In this document: positions 5,224 through 12,473 of the stretch, piece after piece
How the letters are laid out: each line of letters begins with the position of its first letter
How positions within the stretch are numbered: the first letter of the stretch is position 1
Origin: Actinomycetota bacterium
Lineage (GTDB): Bacteria; Actinomycetota; Actinomycetes; Nanopelagicales; Nanopelagicaceae
Direction of reading: 5' to 3'
Assembly (NCBI GenBank): GCA_009701185.1
Contig: WLKQ01000004.1
Location: forward strand, 1 to 53,295
DNA: 53,295 nt
The notes under the pieces: generated by a model
What the model was told of the DNA's origin: nothing
Database searches by the model: none
Seen by the model: the letters and a program-made list of their open reading frames with translations, nothing else
Made by a program: the position numbers and the translations under genes

Positions 5224-7968
5224 ATGGCGACAGAGCGATACTCGGTTCACGAAGCGGAACTCTTGGCAAAGAAATACGCCAAGATCACCAGCGAGAAATC
5301 GTTCGCTCAGACCTTTTGGCGCGATGTCTTCCAGCAACTTTGTGGAGTAGATGACCTGTTGGCGACAGGTATCGAATTCGAATATCCAGTGCGTTCCCAC
5401 GAATCGGGAACCATCAAATTCATCGACGTTCTTTGGCCCGGTGTTGTTCTGGTCGAACACAAGTCGGCTGGACAAAGTCTCGACAAGGCAGAGCAACAGG
5501 CACGCGACTACCTGATTTCGCTCGAAGCGGCAAAACGCCCACCAGTCATCATCCTCTCTGACTTCGCCAAGTTCCGAATTGTCGAAGTTCTCGCGGGCAA
5601 GAGTGTGGAGTTCGCACTCGGCGATCTTCCTCAAAATATTGGACGCTTTGAAGCCATCATTGGTGATGCTGGCATTGGTGCTTCACGAGTTGAAGTAGAA
5701 GCTGATACCAAGGCAGCGAACCTGATGTCTGAACTTTTCGTTCAGTTCGAGAAGGCTGGCTATACAGGGCACGAAGTTTCCGTTTTCTTGGTTCGCATTC
5801 TCTTCTTACTTTTCGGCGACGACACCGCGATGTGGCGTCGGACCGATAAGGGGCTTTTCAGCGATGTAGTAAATAACTCCTCTGACGATGGAAATGGACT
5901 CGGCGCAATTCTTCAAGAGTTGTTTGTAACTTTGAATACGGCGCGAGAAAATCGACCATCAACACTTTCAGATTCAATGTCGGGATTTCCCTATATCAAC
6001 GGTGGGATTTTCGCTGAGCAACTTCCCAACTTCAACTTCAACAAATCGATGCGAAGCGCACTCGTGGCAGCAACCCAATACGACTGGTCGACTATCAGCC
6101 CTGCGATTTTCGGTTCTCTCTTTCAGAGCGTTCGCGATGCTGAAACTCGTCGAGAGATGGGTGAGCATTACACATCCGAAACGAACATTCTTCGTTGTAT
6201 CAACGACCTTTTCCTAAACGATTTCTACACTCGCCTCCATGAGTCGTGGGATTCACCTCAGGCTCTCAAATCGTTTCGTATGGAGTTGGGTCAATACATC
6301 TACCTAGACCCCGCTTGCGGTTCCGGTAACTTTCTCGTGGTCGCATACAAGCGAATGCGCGACATAGAACTAAGAATCATTGCCAGACTTCAGGAGTTGG
6401 ATAACAACCGCGCCCAACTTCAGTTGGATGGTTCGCTCGGGTTACAAGTTCATCTCGGTCAGTTCCACGGTATCGAGATTGATGAGTGGAGTGCCTCTAT
6501 CGCGCGTGTTGCGATGTTCCTTGCTGACCATCAAGCGAACCTTGCTCTGGAACAGATCACTGGTTCCGCGCCGAATCGTTTTCCGCTTACTGAATCAGCG
6601 GTTATCGTAAATGCGAATGCGTTGAGAACTGATTGGGAAACAGTCTGCCCAATGAATAAGAACACTTTCATAATGGGAAATCCTCCTTTCTTTGGCACGT
6701 ATTTACTCTCAGACGAACAACGAGAAGACACGCAGTTTGTCTGGAATGGGCAAGATGTTGGAGGCCGCCTCGATTTCGTAGCAAATTGGTTTGTGCTAGC
6801 CGCACGACAGGTTGCTACAAAAGGTGGGCGTGTAGCCCTAGTAAGCACAAACAGCATCTCGCAAGGCGTTCAGCCAGCAACACTCTGGAAAGAATCCAGT
6901 ATGAGAAATGTCAAAATTGATTTCGCTCACCAAACATTCAAGTGGCAAAACGATGCGAGTGGCGTGGCAGCCGTTCACGTGGTCATAATTGGATTCTCTG
7001 CCAGAAGTTCAAGCAACGCAGAATGTAACTTGTGGACTTATCCAGATATCAAAAGCTTGCCCGTTCTTCGAAAAGTATCGAATATAAATGCGTATCTAGT
7101 CGATGGCCCAGACATACTCATCGAAGCTCGCACGAAACCACTCAACCCAGATGTAAGCCCGATGCTAAAAGGTAGTGGGCCAACGGATGGCGGTTTCTTG
7201 AGTGATATAAACGCTGAGGAAGCAGCAGAGATTCGTAAGACCGATCCAATTGCTGCGAAGTATCTTCGGAGATTTGTAGGAGCGCGCGAACTCATTCACG
7301 ATGTTGAACGCTGGTGTCTCTGGTTAGCCGAGGCCGAACCTGCGGACGTCCGTGCTTCGAAGGAAATCACCGCGCGTTTGGAATCAGTCAAGCAAATGCG
7401 CTTAGCAAGCAAGAAGGCTGCGACTCGAGACCTCGCTCGCACTCCACATCTCTTCGAACATAACGTTCAGCCAAGCACGACATATATTGCTGTTCCTCGA
7501 CATAGTTCGGAAGACCGGGAATACGTTCCCATGGCTTACTTCGACAACTCAGTGGTCGCAAGTGATGCGCTATCGATTATCCCTGACGCGCCATTATGGG
7601 TATTCGCAGTTTTACAGTCTCGCCCCTTCAATGTCTGGAACAAGACAGTTTCCGGTCGTATCAAAAGCGATACGCGAATCAGCAACACAATTACCTACAA
7701 CACTTTCCCATTCCCAGAACTGAATTCCGACCTGCGCAACAAACTCACCGAGTCCGTGAATGCGGTTCTCAATGCTCGTGAGAAATACAAAGACAGTTCG
7801 CTTGCCGATCTGTATGAATCAACGAGTATGCCTGCTGAACTCAGCAAGGCGCATATGAATCTGGATTCAGATGTCCTTGCTGCTTACGGTCTCAAATCAG
7901 ATTCAAGCGACGCAGATATTCTTGAGACTCTTTTCTCCAGTTACGCGAGCCAAGCGAATCAAAAGTAG
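5224..7968 (+). CDS. MmeI-like single-chain type IIL/IIG restriction-modification enzyme
   Basis: One polypeptide with endonuclease, adenine methyltransferase and target-recognition parts, at 914 residues close to MmeI itself. The N-terminal nuclease motif is Asp68-X9-Glu78-His-Lys80, the D-X9-EXK spacing reported for MmeI. A helical connector follows; then come methyltransferase motif X (EMGEHYTSE, 311-319), motif I DPACGSGNF (362-370) and motif IV NPPF (486-489). The C-terminal 350 residues would hold the specificity domain. It stands alone: no separate methylase, specificity subunit or helicase nearby. It appears richer in C-ending codons (TTC, CTC, ATC) than its neighbours by eye, which suggests transfer. 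Start: leaderless ATG with TAATCT 6 bases upstream. The recognition sequence cannot be read from sequence alone. Confidence 0.9.
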   Translation: MATERYSVHEAELLAKKYAKITSEKSFAQTFWRDVFQQLCGVDDLLATGIEFEYPVRSHESGTIKFIDVLWPGVVLVEHKSAGQSLDKAEQQARDYLISLEAAKRPPVIILSDFAKFRIVEVLAGKSVEFALGDLPQNIGRFEAIIGDAGIGASRVEVEADTKAANLMSELFVQFEKAGYTGHEVSVFLVRILFLLFGDDTAMWRRTDKGLFSDVVNNSSDDGNGLGAILQELFVTLNTARENRPSTLSDSMSGFPYINGGIFAEQLPNFNFNKSMRSALVAATQYDWSTISPAIFGSLFQSVRDAETRREMGEHYTSETNILRCINDLFLNDFYTRLHESWDSPQALKSFRMELGQYIYLDPACGSGNFLVVAYKRMRDIELRIIARLQELDNNRAQLQLDGSLGLQVHLGQFHGIEIDEWSASIARVAMFLADHQANLALEQITGSAPNRFPLTESAVIVNANALRTDWETVCPMNKNTFIMGNPPFFGTYLLSDEQREDTQFVWNGQDVGGRLDFVANWFVLAARQVATKGGRVALVSTNSISQGVQPATLWKESSMRNVKIDFAHQTFKWQNDASGVAAVHVVIIGFSARSSSNAECNLWTYPDIKSLPVLRKVSNINAYLVDGPDILIEARTKPLNPDVSPMLKGSGPTDGGFLSDINAEEAAEIRKTDPIAAKYLRRFVGARELIHDVERWCLWLAEAEPADVRASKEITARLESVKQMRLASKKAATRDLARTPHLFEHNVQPSTTYIAVPRHSSEDREYVPMAYFDNSVVASDALSIIPDAPLWVFAVLQSRPFNVWNKTVSGRIKSDTRISNTITYNTFPFPELNSDLRNKLTESVNAVLNAREKYKDSSLADLYESTSMPAELSKAHMNLDSDVLAAYGLKSDSSDADILETLFSSYASQANQK

Positions 7969-8579: not shown

Positions 8580-8674
8580 CGTCCTCACCTCTTCTCTCTG
8601 TTGGCTAACACTTTCGATGTTAGGTGCTGCTCCGGTTGTTCCTAGTTAGTAGTTAGTTTTTTCGGGTAATGAAA

Positions 8675-8708
8675 AAGGGCCCGAATCCTTTGTGGATTCG
8701 AGGCCCTT
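8675..8708 (-). terminator. Intrinsic terminator inside the whiB7 leader
   Basis: AAGGGCC (8675-8681) pairs with GGCCCTT (8702-8708), and CGAATCC (8682-8688) with GGATTCG (8694-8700). That gives a 14-bp stem with one bulged A and a 5-base loop. On the minus strand it is followed directly by a run of T. It lies 22 bases after the stop codon of the small leader ORF and 95 bases before whiB7, so transcripts must read through it to express the regulator. Confidence 0.85.
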
Positions 8709-8716
8709 GGCTTCTA

Positions 8717-8744
8717 GTTCTTATTCGATGTTATCGAGTAGAAC
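8717..8744 (-). promoter_or_regulatory. Hairpin spanning the stop codon of the whiB7 leader ORF
   Basis: GTTCT (8717-8721) pairs with AGAAC (8740-8744), and inside it TCGAT (8725-8729) pairs with ATCGA (8733-8737). The TAA of the leader ORF (8731-8733) sits in the apical loop. Its CGAAT strand repeats a sequence of the terminator 5' arm, so it could compete for the terminator 3' arm. Confidence 0.55.
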
Positions 8745-8889
8745 CCCAAGTGGCCTCTTGTCCGGCATAGAAAGCGGCGTAAAACGCTGGCTTTGCGGTA
8801 TGCCAAGTTGAAGGCTTATTGGTTGTATGAGCAGAAGGAATCACAGCAGAGCGCAGTGCGCTTGCTGATACGAATGATGCGTTAGACAT
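8731..8889 (-). CDS. 52-residue leader ORF upstream of whiB7
   Basis: Small ORF starting at ATG 8889 behind a strong Shine-Dalgarno (AAAGGGAG, 7 bases before the ATG) and ending at TAA 8731. The peptide begins MSNASFVSASALRSAV and is rich in Ala, Ser, Thr and aromatics; the second half has two Trp residues flanking a Phe/Tyr-rich core. It has no signal peptide or known domain. Position, good ribosome site, a hairpin over its stop and a terminator immediately after match the leader-peptide attenuation known for whiB7/wblC genes of mycobacteria and Streptomyces, where poor translation of the leader lets polymerase pass the terminator. It could instead encode a free small protein. Confidence 0.7.
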   Translation of the reverse strand: MSNASFVSASALRSAVIPSAHTTNKPSTWHTAKPAFYAAFYAGQEATWGSTR

Positions 8890-8944
8890 ATTCGTTCTCC
8901 CTTTCAACTCATCATCATTTCGCCAAAGAAATGAATGAGTGGCA

Positions 8945-8986
8945 AGGGTAAAGCATGGGGCCGCCTGTATGCAAGTTAATTAGATA
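8945..8986 (-). promoter_or_regulatory. Putative whiB7 leader promoter with upstream AT-rich block
   Basis: On the minus strand TTGCAT (8969-8974) and TACCCT (8945-8950) are 18 bases apart. An AT-rich block (8975-8986) directly precedes the -35, the arrangement recognised by WhiB7 with the primary sigma factor, so autoregulation is possible. The predicted transcript start lies about 50 bases before the leader ORF. Confidence 0.4.
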
Positions 8987-9016: not shown

Positions 9017-10702
9017 TTACGCGGGGATAAGGCCAGCTTCAATGAGAAAACGTGAAGGTTTGCCGCGATAACTCAGGTGAAGATCTACCTTTGCCCGTGT
9101 GATTCCTACATAAAACAAACGGCGCTCTTCATCGATTGAAGCTTGATCATTACTTGTAGAACTATTTTCAAGTGGCAAAAGACCTTCGCTGACGCCCATC
9201 AAAAATACTCGTTCCCATTCAAGACCTTTAGCTGCATGCAAAGTCGCCAACGTTGTTACTGGCATCGTTGGCGGATTATTTTGTTGAACCCGGTCCTCGA
9301 GTTCGCGCAAATATGTACGCAAATTCTTTGGAGTAAAACCACTATCTGCATCAAGTTCACGCGCTAAGTGCAGCAGCGCGGCAATTCCATCGATGTGTGC
9401 GCCCGTTAAAAAGGGTTGAGCTAAAGTGCGCAATTCATCCAGCCATGAAACTCCTTCAGTAGGTATAACTGAAGCGTTACGAACTAGCTTAAGGAACTCG
9501 CGAACATCAGGGCGATCAAAGAAGCGCTCACTGTTTCGAATTTGATAGGGAAGTTTTGCTGCGTTCATTGCACGTTCAAGCGTATTAAGTTGGCTATTAG
9601 TGCGGGCCAGAACTGCAATCTCTTGGGCTTGTGCGCCTTCACTTAATAACTGCTTTATCCACTCAACTATGCCGGCAATTTCACCACTCTCATCCTTAAA
9701 GGAATCTACAGATGGTTTATCACCGTGATCATTGAGTGCGACAAGCTCTTGACCCATCTGAGCTTTACGTAAAACACTGTTCGCCATAAATGTAATTTCA
9801 GGAGTTGATCGATAACCCGTAGTTAAACGAACAACCTCGGCCTCTGGAAAACGATTGGTAAATGAGTTTAAGAAGACTGGAGTAGCACCTGCAAAAGAAT
9901 AAATCGTCTGTGCGGGATCACCGACGACACAGATTTCTTGACGCGAGCCCAACCATGCGTTAATTAACCGCTGCTGCAGGGGGGAAATATCTTGGTACTC
10001 ATCGACTGTGAAGAAACGGTACTGATCCTGCACGCGTTCGCGAGCTTCGCGCTCTTGTTCAATCATTGCGGTGGTCAGCAGCAATACGTCTTCAAAATCC
10101 ATCGCGCGCTCTTGGTGCTTGACTGATTCATAAGCGGTATAAACCTTGGCGATTTGTTCAGCGTTAATACGTGGCTTAGTTGGACGCTTGCTCAGTTCGG
10201 CCAAGTAGTCGGCTGGGGCAACTTGAGAAACCTTGGCCCACTCGATTTCAGATGCAATATCGCGCATTAAATCGCGCGAGGTAAGAGATAGTTCGCCAGT
10301 TAGTTCAGCGCGCTTAATCGCCTCAGTAATAAAACTCGTTTTCGTTGTAATCAAATCAGGAGTGCGACCACCAAAAACTTGAGGCCAGAAAAACGTTAAC
10401 TGCTTTAAGGCTGCCGCGTGGATTGTGCGGGCGGCAACGGATGGAACGCCTAGAGAGCGAAGACGCATACGCATCTCCCCTGCAGCGCGGGCCGTAAAAG
10501 TAAGCGCTAAAACCTTATGTGGATCCATAACTCCTATGGCTGCCGCGTATGCGATGCGATGCGTGATTGCGCGAGTCTTACCTGTACCAGCACCAGCGAT
10601 AACACACACTGGACCACGAGTCGCTAGCGCTACTGCGCGTTGCTCATTATCAAGGGCTTCTAGTATCTCTTCGGCGCGAATGTCGTTGGTCAATTTCTCC
10701 AC
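9017..10702 (-). CDS. uvrD2: Superfamily I DNA helicase, short UvrD2-like
   Basis: 3'-5' SF1A helicase of the UvrD/PcrA class. Walker A is AGAGTGKT (36-43), DEYQD marks motif II, followed by motif III (GDPAQTIYSFAGA), motif V (TLHAAKGLEWE) and motif VI (YVGITRAK). The gene neighbourhood (uvrD2, nudC, adnB, adnA) matches mycobacteria. It has 561 residues against about 700 in mycobacterial UvrD2 and ends about 25 residues after motif VI. The C-terminal HRDC and tetracysteine regions of the mycobacterial protein are therefore absent. The GTG at 10702 lies within the end of nudC (13-base overlap), implying coupled translation; no better start is visible. Confidence 0.85.
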   Translation of the reverse strand: MEKLTNDIRAEEILEALDNEQRAVALATRGPVCVIAGAGTGKTRAITHRIAYAAAIGVMDPHKVLALTFTARAAGEMRMRLRSLGVPSVAARTIHAAALKQLTFFWPQVFGGRTPDLITTKTSFITEAIKRAELTGELSLTSRDLMRDIASEIEWAKVSQVAPADYLAELSKRPTKPRINAEQIAKVYTAYESVKHQERAMDFEDVLLLTTAMIEQEREARERVQDQYRFFTVDEYQDISPLQQRLINAWLGSRQEICVVGDPAQTIYSFAGATPVFLNSFTNRFPEAEVVRLTTGYRSTPEITFMANSVLRKAQMGQELVALNDHGDKPSVDSFKDESGEIAGIVEWIKQLLSEGAQAQEIAVLARTNSQLNTLERAMNAAKLPYQIRNSERFFDRPDVREFLKLVRNASVIPTEGVSWLDELRTLAQPFLTGAHIDGIAALLHLARELDADSGFTPKNLRTYLRELEDRVQQNNPPTMPVTTLATLHAAKGLEWERVFLMGVSEGLLPLENSSTSNDQASIDEERRLFYVGITRAKVDLHLSYRGKPSRFLIEAGLIPA

Positions 10703-11640
10703 GACTCCCCACCGCTTAAATCTTTAACGGTGTAACCAGCTTTAGATGTGTACCACCCTGTAATCATTTTGCGTGCAACCGAAATTGTCGGTGGCAATAA
10801 TAAATCTCCAGTGGCAACTGCGGTTTTCATTTCATCACGGCTAAACCAGCGTACTTCAACGATTTCTGCGCCATCTGGCTTAGCTGCTTCTGGATGATCA
10901 GTGATGGCTTCAAATGCAATCATGATTGAGGCTGGAAATGGCCAAGCTTGAGATCCTAAATAATTTATGTCGTTACAGTACACATTTGCTTCTTCGAAAA
11001 CCTCACGTGATACACACTCTTCGAATGACTCTCCTGGCTCAACAAATCCAGCGAAGGTTGAAAAGCGTTTTTCGGGCCATATCGCTTGGTGGCCAAGCAA
11101 AATTCGATCCTCTGCATCTTTTACTAAAACGATTACTGCGGGATCTGTACGTGGGTGATGTTGTGAAGAATCTTCGACGCACACGCGAACGCTTCCACCT
11201 AAATCTGCAACAGTTTCTGCTCCACACCTAGAACAACGAGGGTGCGACTTATGCCAATTGCTTAAACCCACAGCATGCATCGCAACCGTTAATTCGATTT
11301 CACTTAACTCTGAACCAACGGCACGTAGGGTCTTAAATCCATCAAACTTTATTGCTTCATCGGCGGGCTCATTGATCCATGATGTGCGCCATGCAAAAAA
11401 TGCTTGACCACCATCGCGAGCTTGACCTAAGAAATATCGCTCACCTGTTTCAAAGGATGCAGCCAAAAACTCGACAGTATCGGCGTCAAGGAATCGCAAA
11501 CCACTATCGCCAGCACCAATATGACCATCGATGATCGGCAGGATTGCTGCACTCTTCCACAGCAGGGCTAAAGCATCGCCATCGCTGCGCAGGTGACTGG
11601 CTCGATCGATGGGCGAAAGGGATTGGTTTCTAGCGCTCAT
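10690..11640 (-). CDS. nudC: NADH pyrophosphatase NudC (Nudix hydrolase)
   Basis: Hydrolyses NADH/NAD+ to NMN(H) and AMP and, in characterised NudC proteins, removes NAD caps from RNA. The protein has a central zinc ribbon (CSRCG with a second, degenerate half), a complete Nudix box (G-F-V-E-P-G-E-S ... R-E-V-F-E-E) and the SQAWPFPAS signature specific for NADH pyrophosphatases. I use the ATG at 11640 (316 residues, close to the mycobacterial length). An ATG at 11682 is in frame but would overlap the divergent gene. The start has no Shine-Dalgarno; a TAGTCT box lies 10 bases upstream. It is followed with overlap by uvrD2. Confidence 0.92.
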   Translation of the reverse strand: MSARNQSLSPIDRASHLRSDGDALALLWKSAAILPIIDGHIGAGDSGLRFLDADTVEFLAASFETGERYFLGQARDGGQAFFAWRTSWINEPADEAIKFDGFKTLRAVGSELSEIELTVAMHAVGLSNWHKSHPRCSRCGAETVADLGGSVRVCVEDSSQHHPRTDPAVIVLVKDAEDRILLGHQAIWPEKRFSTFAGFVEPGESFEECVSREVFEEANVYCNDINYLGSQAWPFPASIMIAFEAITDHPEAAKPDGAEIVEVRWFSRDEMKTAVATGDLLLPPTISVARKMITGWYTSKAGYTVKDLSGGESWRN

Positions 11641-11657
11641 TAAGTCGCTCAGACTAC

Positions 11658-11663
11658 TAGCAT
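11658..11663 (+). promoter_or_regulatory. -10 box for the EEP-family gene (leaderless)
   Basis: TAGCAT, 6 bases, then the ATG at 11670; no Shine-Dalgarno. The divergent nudC start is only 29 bases away, so both promoters must overlap. Confidence 0.45.
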
Positions 11664-11669
11664 CGCCCC

Positions 11670-12473
11670 ATGCGCCTAACATCGTGGAATTTGCTGCACG
11701 GAGAAGCGATGCCGCCTGATAAAAACGCTGACAACGCCGCCTTGCTGGAAGCTGAAATCAGCCATCTAGACAGTGACGTGATTGGGCTGCAAGAAGTCGA
11801 TTATTTCTTAGCGCGCTCGGGCAACCATAATCAAGTGGCCAACGTTGCAGACATGATGAGCGCTGCACATTGGGCTTTTGCGCCATCACTGATGGGCTCT
11901 CCCGATGAGGATTGGCGCAATCCAGATCACAATGATGACAAATTAATAACAGAAAAAAGTGACGTATCACTTCCTGGTTATGGAATAGGCATAGTCTCAA
12001 AAATCCCGGTTCTTTCATGGCACCGTTTAGATTTAAAGGGATCACCTGTCGGGGTCATGATGGCTTTTCCTGTCGATGGAAAGTTAAAACGTTTTTATGT
12101 CCGAGATCATCCACGAAGTGCAGTTGGTGCAATTCTAGATAATGGTTGGTTAGTCATTAATACACATCTTTCATTTGTCCCCTTCTTTAATCTAGTGCAG
12201 CTGATAAAAATTAAACGGTGGTCACATACGTTAGGCGTAAGGGACAAATCAAAGATTGTCATAATGGGCGATCTCAATATTCCATTTGTGCGAATCGTTA
12301 AAGGTTTTACATGGAAATCATTGGCGACCCAAAAGACTTTCCCAAGCTGGGGGCCAAAAGTGCAGATTGATTATTTTCTTTCTCAAGGAGTACATCCTGG
12401 TGATGTAGTACATACTGCATACCCACACTCTGGAATGAGTGATCACTTACCGCTGCAGATTGAGGTTAATTAA
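11670..12473 (+). CDS. Endonuclease/exonuclease/phosphatase (EEP) family protein
   Basis: Metal-dependent phosphohydrolase fold shared by DNase I, exonuclease III and sphingomyelinases. The conserved blocks are in order: SWNLLHGE (residues 4-11), GLQEVD near 40, NTHLSF, GDLNIP and SDHLPL at the C-terminus, giving the usual Asn/Glu/Asp/His metal and catalytic set. There is no signal peptide, so it acts in the cytoplasm. It sits inside the repair block between nudC and adnB but on the other strand; DNA, nucleotide or phospholipid substrates are all possible. Its TAA overlaps the adnB stop codon in a shared TTAATTAA. Confidence 0.85.
   Translation: MRLTSWNLLHGEAMPPDKNADNAALLEAEISHLDSDVIGLQEVDYFLARSGNHNQVANVADMMSAAHWAFAPSLMGSPDEDWRNPDHNDDKLITEKSDVSLPGYGIGIVSKIPVLSWHRLDLKGSPVGVMMAFPVDGKLKRFYVRDHPRSAVGAILDNGWLVINTHLSFVPFFNLVQLIKIKRWSHTLGVRDKSKIVIMGDLNIPFVRIVKGFTWKSLATQKTFPSWGPKVQIDYFLSQGVHPGDVVHTAYPHSGMSDHLPLQIEVN

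Follow-up and report, generated by a model that had tools for sequence, protein, structure and literature searches.

An upstream open reading frame (uORF)-mediated transcription attenuator of whiB7/wblC was reportedly described by Lee, Lee and Roe in 2022 (Mol Microbiol 117:179). The mechanism has been covered in several publications (PMC11550727, PMC13236596, PMC13393426, PMC4128351), including the mycobacterial whiB7 attenuator (PMC4128351, PMC13236596), and reviews report that whiB7/wblC is induced by amino-acid starvation (PMC11550727, PMC13393426). The ilvB1/ilvBNC leaders of Mycobacterium and Corynebacterium (PMC13236596, PMC10272879) share with it a uORF and a ribosome-controlled antiterminator opposed to an intrinsic terminator, but the codons they read are those for branched-chain amino acids, and the genes they control are biosynthetic.

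We analysed a window of 53,295 nucleotides (contig WLKQ01000004.1) from Candidatus Planktophila, a freshwater genus of Nanopelagicaceae; the whiB7 leader of the window lies on the minus strand. An earlier note on this window had described a promoter, a 52-codon ORF with a Shine-Dalgarno sequence, a stop-codon hairpin and a 14-bp terminator in front of whiB7, and all of these elements were recovered on the minus strand (Table 1). The layout matches that of the whiB7/wblC attenuator: a long leader with a conserved uORF led by a Shine-Dalgarno sequence precedes a WhiB7-family gene, an intrinsic terminator stands between the two, and translation of the uORF would set the choice between terminator and antiterminator. 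We consider it very likely that this leader attenuates whiB7 transcription under ribosome control, with codons 45-48 of the leader ORF and the terminator 5' arm as the deciding partners.

Table 1. Features at the whiB7 locus of the window, with their positions and the basis on which each was assigned.
Feature	Position	Strand	Sequence or composition	Basis
NudC-type NAD+ diphosphatase	10690..11682	-		NCBIfam NF001299 above cut-off
UvrD-family helicase, upstream of whiB7 promoter	9017..10702	-		Pfam
WhiB7-type promoter	8945..8982	-	AT-rich block TAATTAAC, -35-like TTGCAT, 18-nt spacer, -10-like TACCCT	
Predicted transcription start site	~8938-8940	-		
5' hairpin at predicted transcript start	8909..8938	-		Folding
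Shine-Dalgarno of leader ORF	~8897..8904	-	AAAGGGAG	Sequence
Leader ORF	8731..8889	-	52 codons + TAA: MSNASFVSASALRSAVIPSAHTTNKPSTWHTAKPAFYAAFYAGQEATWGSTR	Conservation, pN/pS
Extra hairpin, leader codons 8-16	~8840-8870	-	AGCGC/GCGCT	
FYAxFYA core motif, codons 36-42	8764..8784	-		Alignment, codon counts
Antiterminator 5' strand, codons 45-48	8746..8757	-	GAGGCCaCTTGG	Synonymous-recoding test
Stop-codon hairpin, stop in apical loop	8716..8745	-	GGTTCTACTCGA-TAA-CATCGAATAAGAACT	Recoding test, covarying stems
Antiterminator 3' strand, overlapping terminator 5' arm	8700..8710	-	CCAAGGGCCTC	Folding, recoding test, covariation
Intrinsic terminator	8672..8708	-	14-bp stem with one bulge (8708-8675) and 5-T run (8676-8672)	
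whiB7	8579 (ATG) to 8160	-	MSVLFSELLVPGWA...	WhiB domain, GVWGG, basic RKRKAGRP tail
914-aa ORF, downstream of whiB7	5224-7968	+	NPPF-type motif	By eye

Judged by its sequence features, the regulated gene is a WhiB7/WblC ortholog: its product carries a WhiB domain (Pfam Whib, 60.7 bits against a cut-off of 23.6), the GVWGG motif and an AGRP tail, and its neighbours encode a UvrD-type helicase and NudC. The same neighbourhood of UvrD-type helicase and NudC genes is known for whiB7 of M. tuberculosis. The large plus-strand ORF on the other side of whiB7 resembles a type IIG restriction-modification enzyme or DNA methyltransferase.

The AT-rich block adjoins the -35-like element, a layout that makes the promoter a candidate for autoregulation by WhiB7. 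The order of AT-rich block, TTGCNN, exactly 18 nt and TANNNT was kept in all 60 Planktophila leaders checked. When the strict form of this pattern was searched for in the bacterium's own genome, it matched the whiB7 site and one other site; because these matches were not above the reversed-pattern control, no genome-wide WhiB7 regulon was concluded. The hairpin at the predicted 5' end folded better than shuffled sequences, with z below -2 in 68% of 53 leaders. Many Planktophila have it with a TTGGC/ATGGC-type loop flanked by differing stem sequences, some species are without it, and it may possibly protect the 5' end of the transcript.

A search of 101 genomes of the genus yielded 69 readable leaders with a clear whiB7 start, 67 of them with enough upstream sequence. 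The leader ORF was found in all 67, each time with a YA/HA-x-FYA core, and a chance origin of the leader is therefore untenable. Over the whole ORF pN/pS was 0.58, with 0.77 in the N-terminal part and 0.56 in the C-terminal part but only 0.16 at codons 33-42; the shifted frames of the FYAxFYA core gave 1.2 and 0.94, and the whiB7 core, for comparison, 0.25. Changes in the core are thus mostly synonymous in the reading frame, most likely indicating that the peptide is made and that its core matters, or did so over the sampled divergence. The peptide conservation that the earlier note proposed to look for is accordingly present across relatives. FYAxFYA was near-invariant across the genus but was not found in any further genus examined, where the uORFs are different.

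Protein-level constraint on the motif would also be expected if the leader ORF encoded a small protein with a function in trans, with the hairpins forming an ordinary terminator. We regard this as extremely improbable: the N-terminal half is nearly unconstrained, peptide length varies among relatives (about 48-63 aa), and the peptide has no Pfam or NCBIfam match. Moreover, when named genomes were scanned with the leader-peptide alignment (70 loci, under record titles that include Candidatus Planktophila lacus, P. limnetica and Planktophila sp.), whiB7 lay downstream at every one of the 58 loci with sufficient contig, the contig end being reached first at the remaining 12. Seven loci with a Planktophila leader belong to metagenome-assembled genomes (MAGs) titled Streptomyces griseus or Bifidobacterium breve, titles that are probably mislabels. 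Two whiB7-like matches were present in each of two MAGs, through either contamination or a true second copy.

The leader folded at -124.4 kcal/mol (z -5.4), and none of 100 shuffles was as good. Covarying stems, which the earlier note proposed to look for, were seen across relatives, most strongly in the terminator, in which 93.3% of cells were paired, seven pairs had changed on both sides and covariation exceeded that of all 500 shuffles. Covariation was weaker for the antiterminator and the stop-codon hairpin; it is understated for the latter because the MAFFT alignment puts this hairpin wrongly in a few rows. The claim for the stop-codon hairpin therefore rests on a peptide-preserving test, in which the RNA pairings of 58 distinct leaders were compared with those of their synonymous recodings.

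In this test, both the antiterminator and the stop-codon hairpin went beyond the recodings by more than 10 SD. The duplex between codons 45-48 and the terminator 5' arm reached -18.8 kcal/mol, compared with -12.2 +/- 0.5 kcal/mol after recoding. Glu45 was GAG and Ala46 was GCC in 53 of the 58 leaders each, against pooled codon counts that favour GAA and GCA, and one clade swaps GAGGCC/GGCCTC for GGGTCT/GGGCCC. At its loop-side end (alignment columns 14-18), the antiterminator has pairs that some relatives lack. A local hairpin enclosed the stop codon in 58/58 leaders, against 47.9 +/- 2.5 in the recodings, with a stability of -9.3 compared with -6.1 +/- 0.3 kcal/mol.

A different competition had been proposed in the earlier note, namely that a CGAAT copy in the stop-codon hairpin and the terminator 5' arm are rivals for pairing with the 3' arm. 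CGAAT is indeed present at both sites in the window, but both arms carry it in only 16 of the 58 leaders, and pairing between the CGAAT region and the terminator 3' arm was at chance level (-5.66 versus -5.27 +/- 0.29 kcal/mol in shuffles), likewise within the CGAATCC clade. We rejected this candidate, which now appears highly improbable.

Two further hairpins lie within the coding part of the leader. The stretch encoding the peptide motif (about codons 31-42) folded at -10.0 kcal/mol, against -7.0 +/- 0.4 kcal/mol in synonymous recodings, and Pro34->Ser and Ala39->Asn change jointly, preserving a base pair of this hairpin. By analogy with the first hairpin of trp-type attenuators, it could pause RNA polymerase and so synchronise it with the ribosome. 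The hairpin at codons 8-16 is formed by AACGC/GCGTT in relatives, and a 36-nt stretch at these codons was more stable than its synonymous recodings (mean z -2.1).

We modelled the ribosome as a 30-nt mask when folding the transcript of the window. With the A-site at any of codons 2-41, the antiterminator formed before the terminator 3' arm was made (P 0.9-1.0), whereas with the A-site at codons 42-52 it did not (P 0-0.2). Across 55 leaders, this boundary fell 12/11 codons before the stop, coinciding with the end of FYAxFYA. In the full-length leader at equilibrium, the terminator won whatever the state of the ribosome (P 0.68-0.98), indicating that kinetics must decide between terminator and antiterminator, as they usually do in attenuators. 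With the modelled ribosome placed at the stop codon, GAGGCC was still able to pair in 84% of leaders; we assume that a ribosome bound there blocks this pairing sterically.

These comparative data lend good support to the translation-controlled attenuator that had been suggested for this locus, and its working may be pictured as follows. A ribosome on the 52-codon leader ORF would trail the transcribing RNA polymerase. During fast translation, the ribosome would occupy the last ~10 codons and mask codons 45-48, preventing the antiterminator; the terminator 5' arm would then be left to form the terminator with the 3' arm, ending transcription before whiB7. If the ribosome lagged or came to a halt no later than about codon 41, or if the leader were untranslated, GAGGCCaCTTGG would pair with the newly made CCAAGGGCCTC and enclose the stop-codon hairpin, the terminator would come too late, and whiB7 would be transcribed. 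WhiB7 would then boost its own transcription through the AT-rich promoter. Since the leader without a ribosome forms the antiterminator, failed translation of the ORF should also switch whiB7 on. By analogy with mycobacteria and Streptomyces, the inducing signal is most likely general translation stress.

It is possible that the same attenuator is operated in a more specific way, with FYAxFYA as a dedicated arrest or drug-sensing peptide that stalls the ribosome, whether or not a drug is present, with codon 41 or a position just ahead of it in the A-site. The motif is near-invariant and ends at the very boundary where a stall would still free the antiterminator, and between -30 and -10 from the stop, aromatic residues are enriched in Planktophila (0.24) and in other family genera (0.20), an enrichment not shared by other orders (0.05). 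However, the motif stretch also encodes an RNA hairpin beyond the synonymous control, so part of the constraint acts at the RNA level, and stalls anywhere in codons 2-41 would have the same outcome. On balance we think an arrest peptide unlikely.

The composition of the leader peptide bears on two further ideas. Ala, Ser and Thr together make up 49% of the peptide in the window and a mean of 47% in those of the genus, compared with 24% in the proteins of the window, where only 0.5% of 51-aa stretches attain 45%. Stalling by chloramphenicol and linezolid occurs preferentially after Ala/Ser/Thr-type residues, and the leader would thus offer these drugs many stall sites; we take this as a lead only. 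Alternatively, the leader might sense amino-acid starvation, with slow decoding of Ala/Ser/Thr and aromatic codons freeing the antiterminator, a reading that agrees with this composition and with the starvation response reported in the reviews. Unlike amino-acid operon attenuators, however, the leader has no run of one codon family, the regulated gene is whiB7 and not a biosynthetic gene, and the Ala+Ser+Thr content of leader peptides is lower in other orders (28-40%). A starvation sensor is therefore rather doubtful in our judgement, and the same lack of a single-codon-family run before a biosynthetic gene sets this leader apart from attenuators of the trp/ilv kind. Trp-type attenuators do share the order of coding-part hairpin, antiterminator and terminator, but in Planktophila the leader peptide is longer, the stop codon lies in a hairpin nested within the antiterminator, and the gene downstream encodes a regulator.

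In silico, the antiterminator of this leader excludes the terminator according to ribosome position, and a homologous layout elsewhere in the class strengthens the attenuator reading. In other genera of the family, most uORFs end in ...TWSSIG (WSxIG) and precede a similar terminator; in other orders, most end in ...WSPPV and precede a GC-rich one. Pairing of the Trp-region codons with the terminator 5' arm was stronger than in the synonymous controls in both groups (-17.8 versus -12.7 +/- 0.6 in other family genera and -21.1 versus -17.8 +/- 1.0 in other orders), and the stop-codon region likewise folded beyond control in both. The earlier impression that the peptide and the stop-codon hairpin are unlike known leaders thus holds for one of the two: the core of the peptide is specific to the lineage, whereas uORFs whose stop codon sits in a hairpin within the antiterminator also precede whiB7 in other family genera and in other orders of the class. 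Planktophila has the FYAxFYA core and a WGSTR/GSIE ending where other orders have the WSPPV type. Compared with the known whiB7/wblC attenuator, its stems are AT-richer and the antiterminator is anchored by GAGGCC, not CCTGGAG.

We found no account of a whiB7 attenuator for Planktophila in a literature search on Nanopelagicales with whiB7, which gave no paper; four papers name both Planktophila and WhiB. The whole window gave no Rfam 15 covariance-model match at gathering score, and together with the missing Pfam and NCBIfam matches this makes the leader easily missed in annotation. The Planktophila leader is a real, well-conserved and lineage-specific case of the attenuator known from mycobacteria and Streptomyces; what is new is the lineage, the fixed aromatic-Ala motif ending at the predicted stall boundary and the further motif-coding hairpin. 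The 58 distinct natural variants, with the layouts of other genera and orders, make the RNA parts separable from the peptide parts. More speculatively, and in our view improbably, the whiB7 leader peptide of Nanopelagicaceae could be a specific nascent-chain sensor of a particular ribosome-binding compound or state in fresh water; if so, the aromatic-Ala motif would be placed such that arrest at its end occurs at the last position that frees the antiterminator. On these findings, freshwater bacteria that are abundant and have reduced genomes keep a complete and tightly conserved translation-stress switch, as predicted here, on a drug-response regulator.
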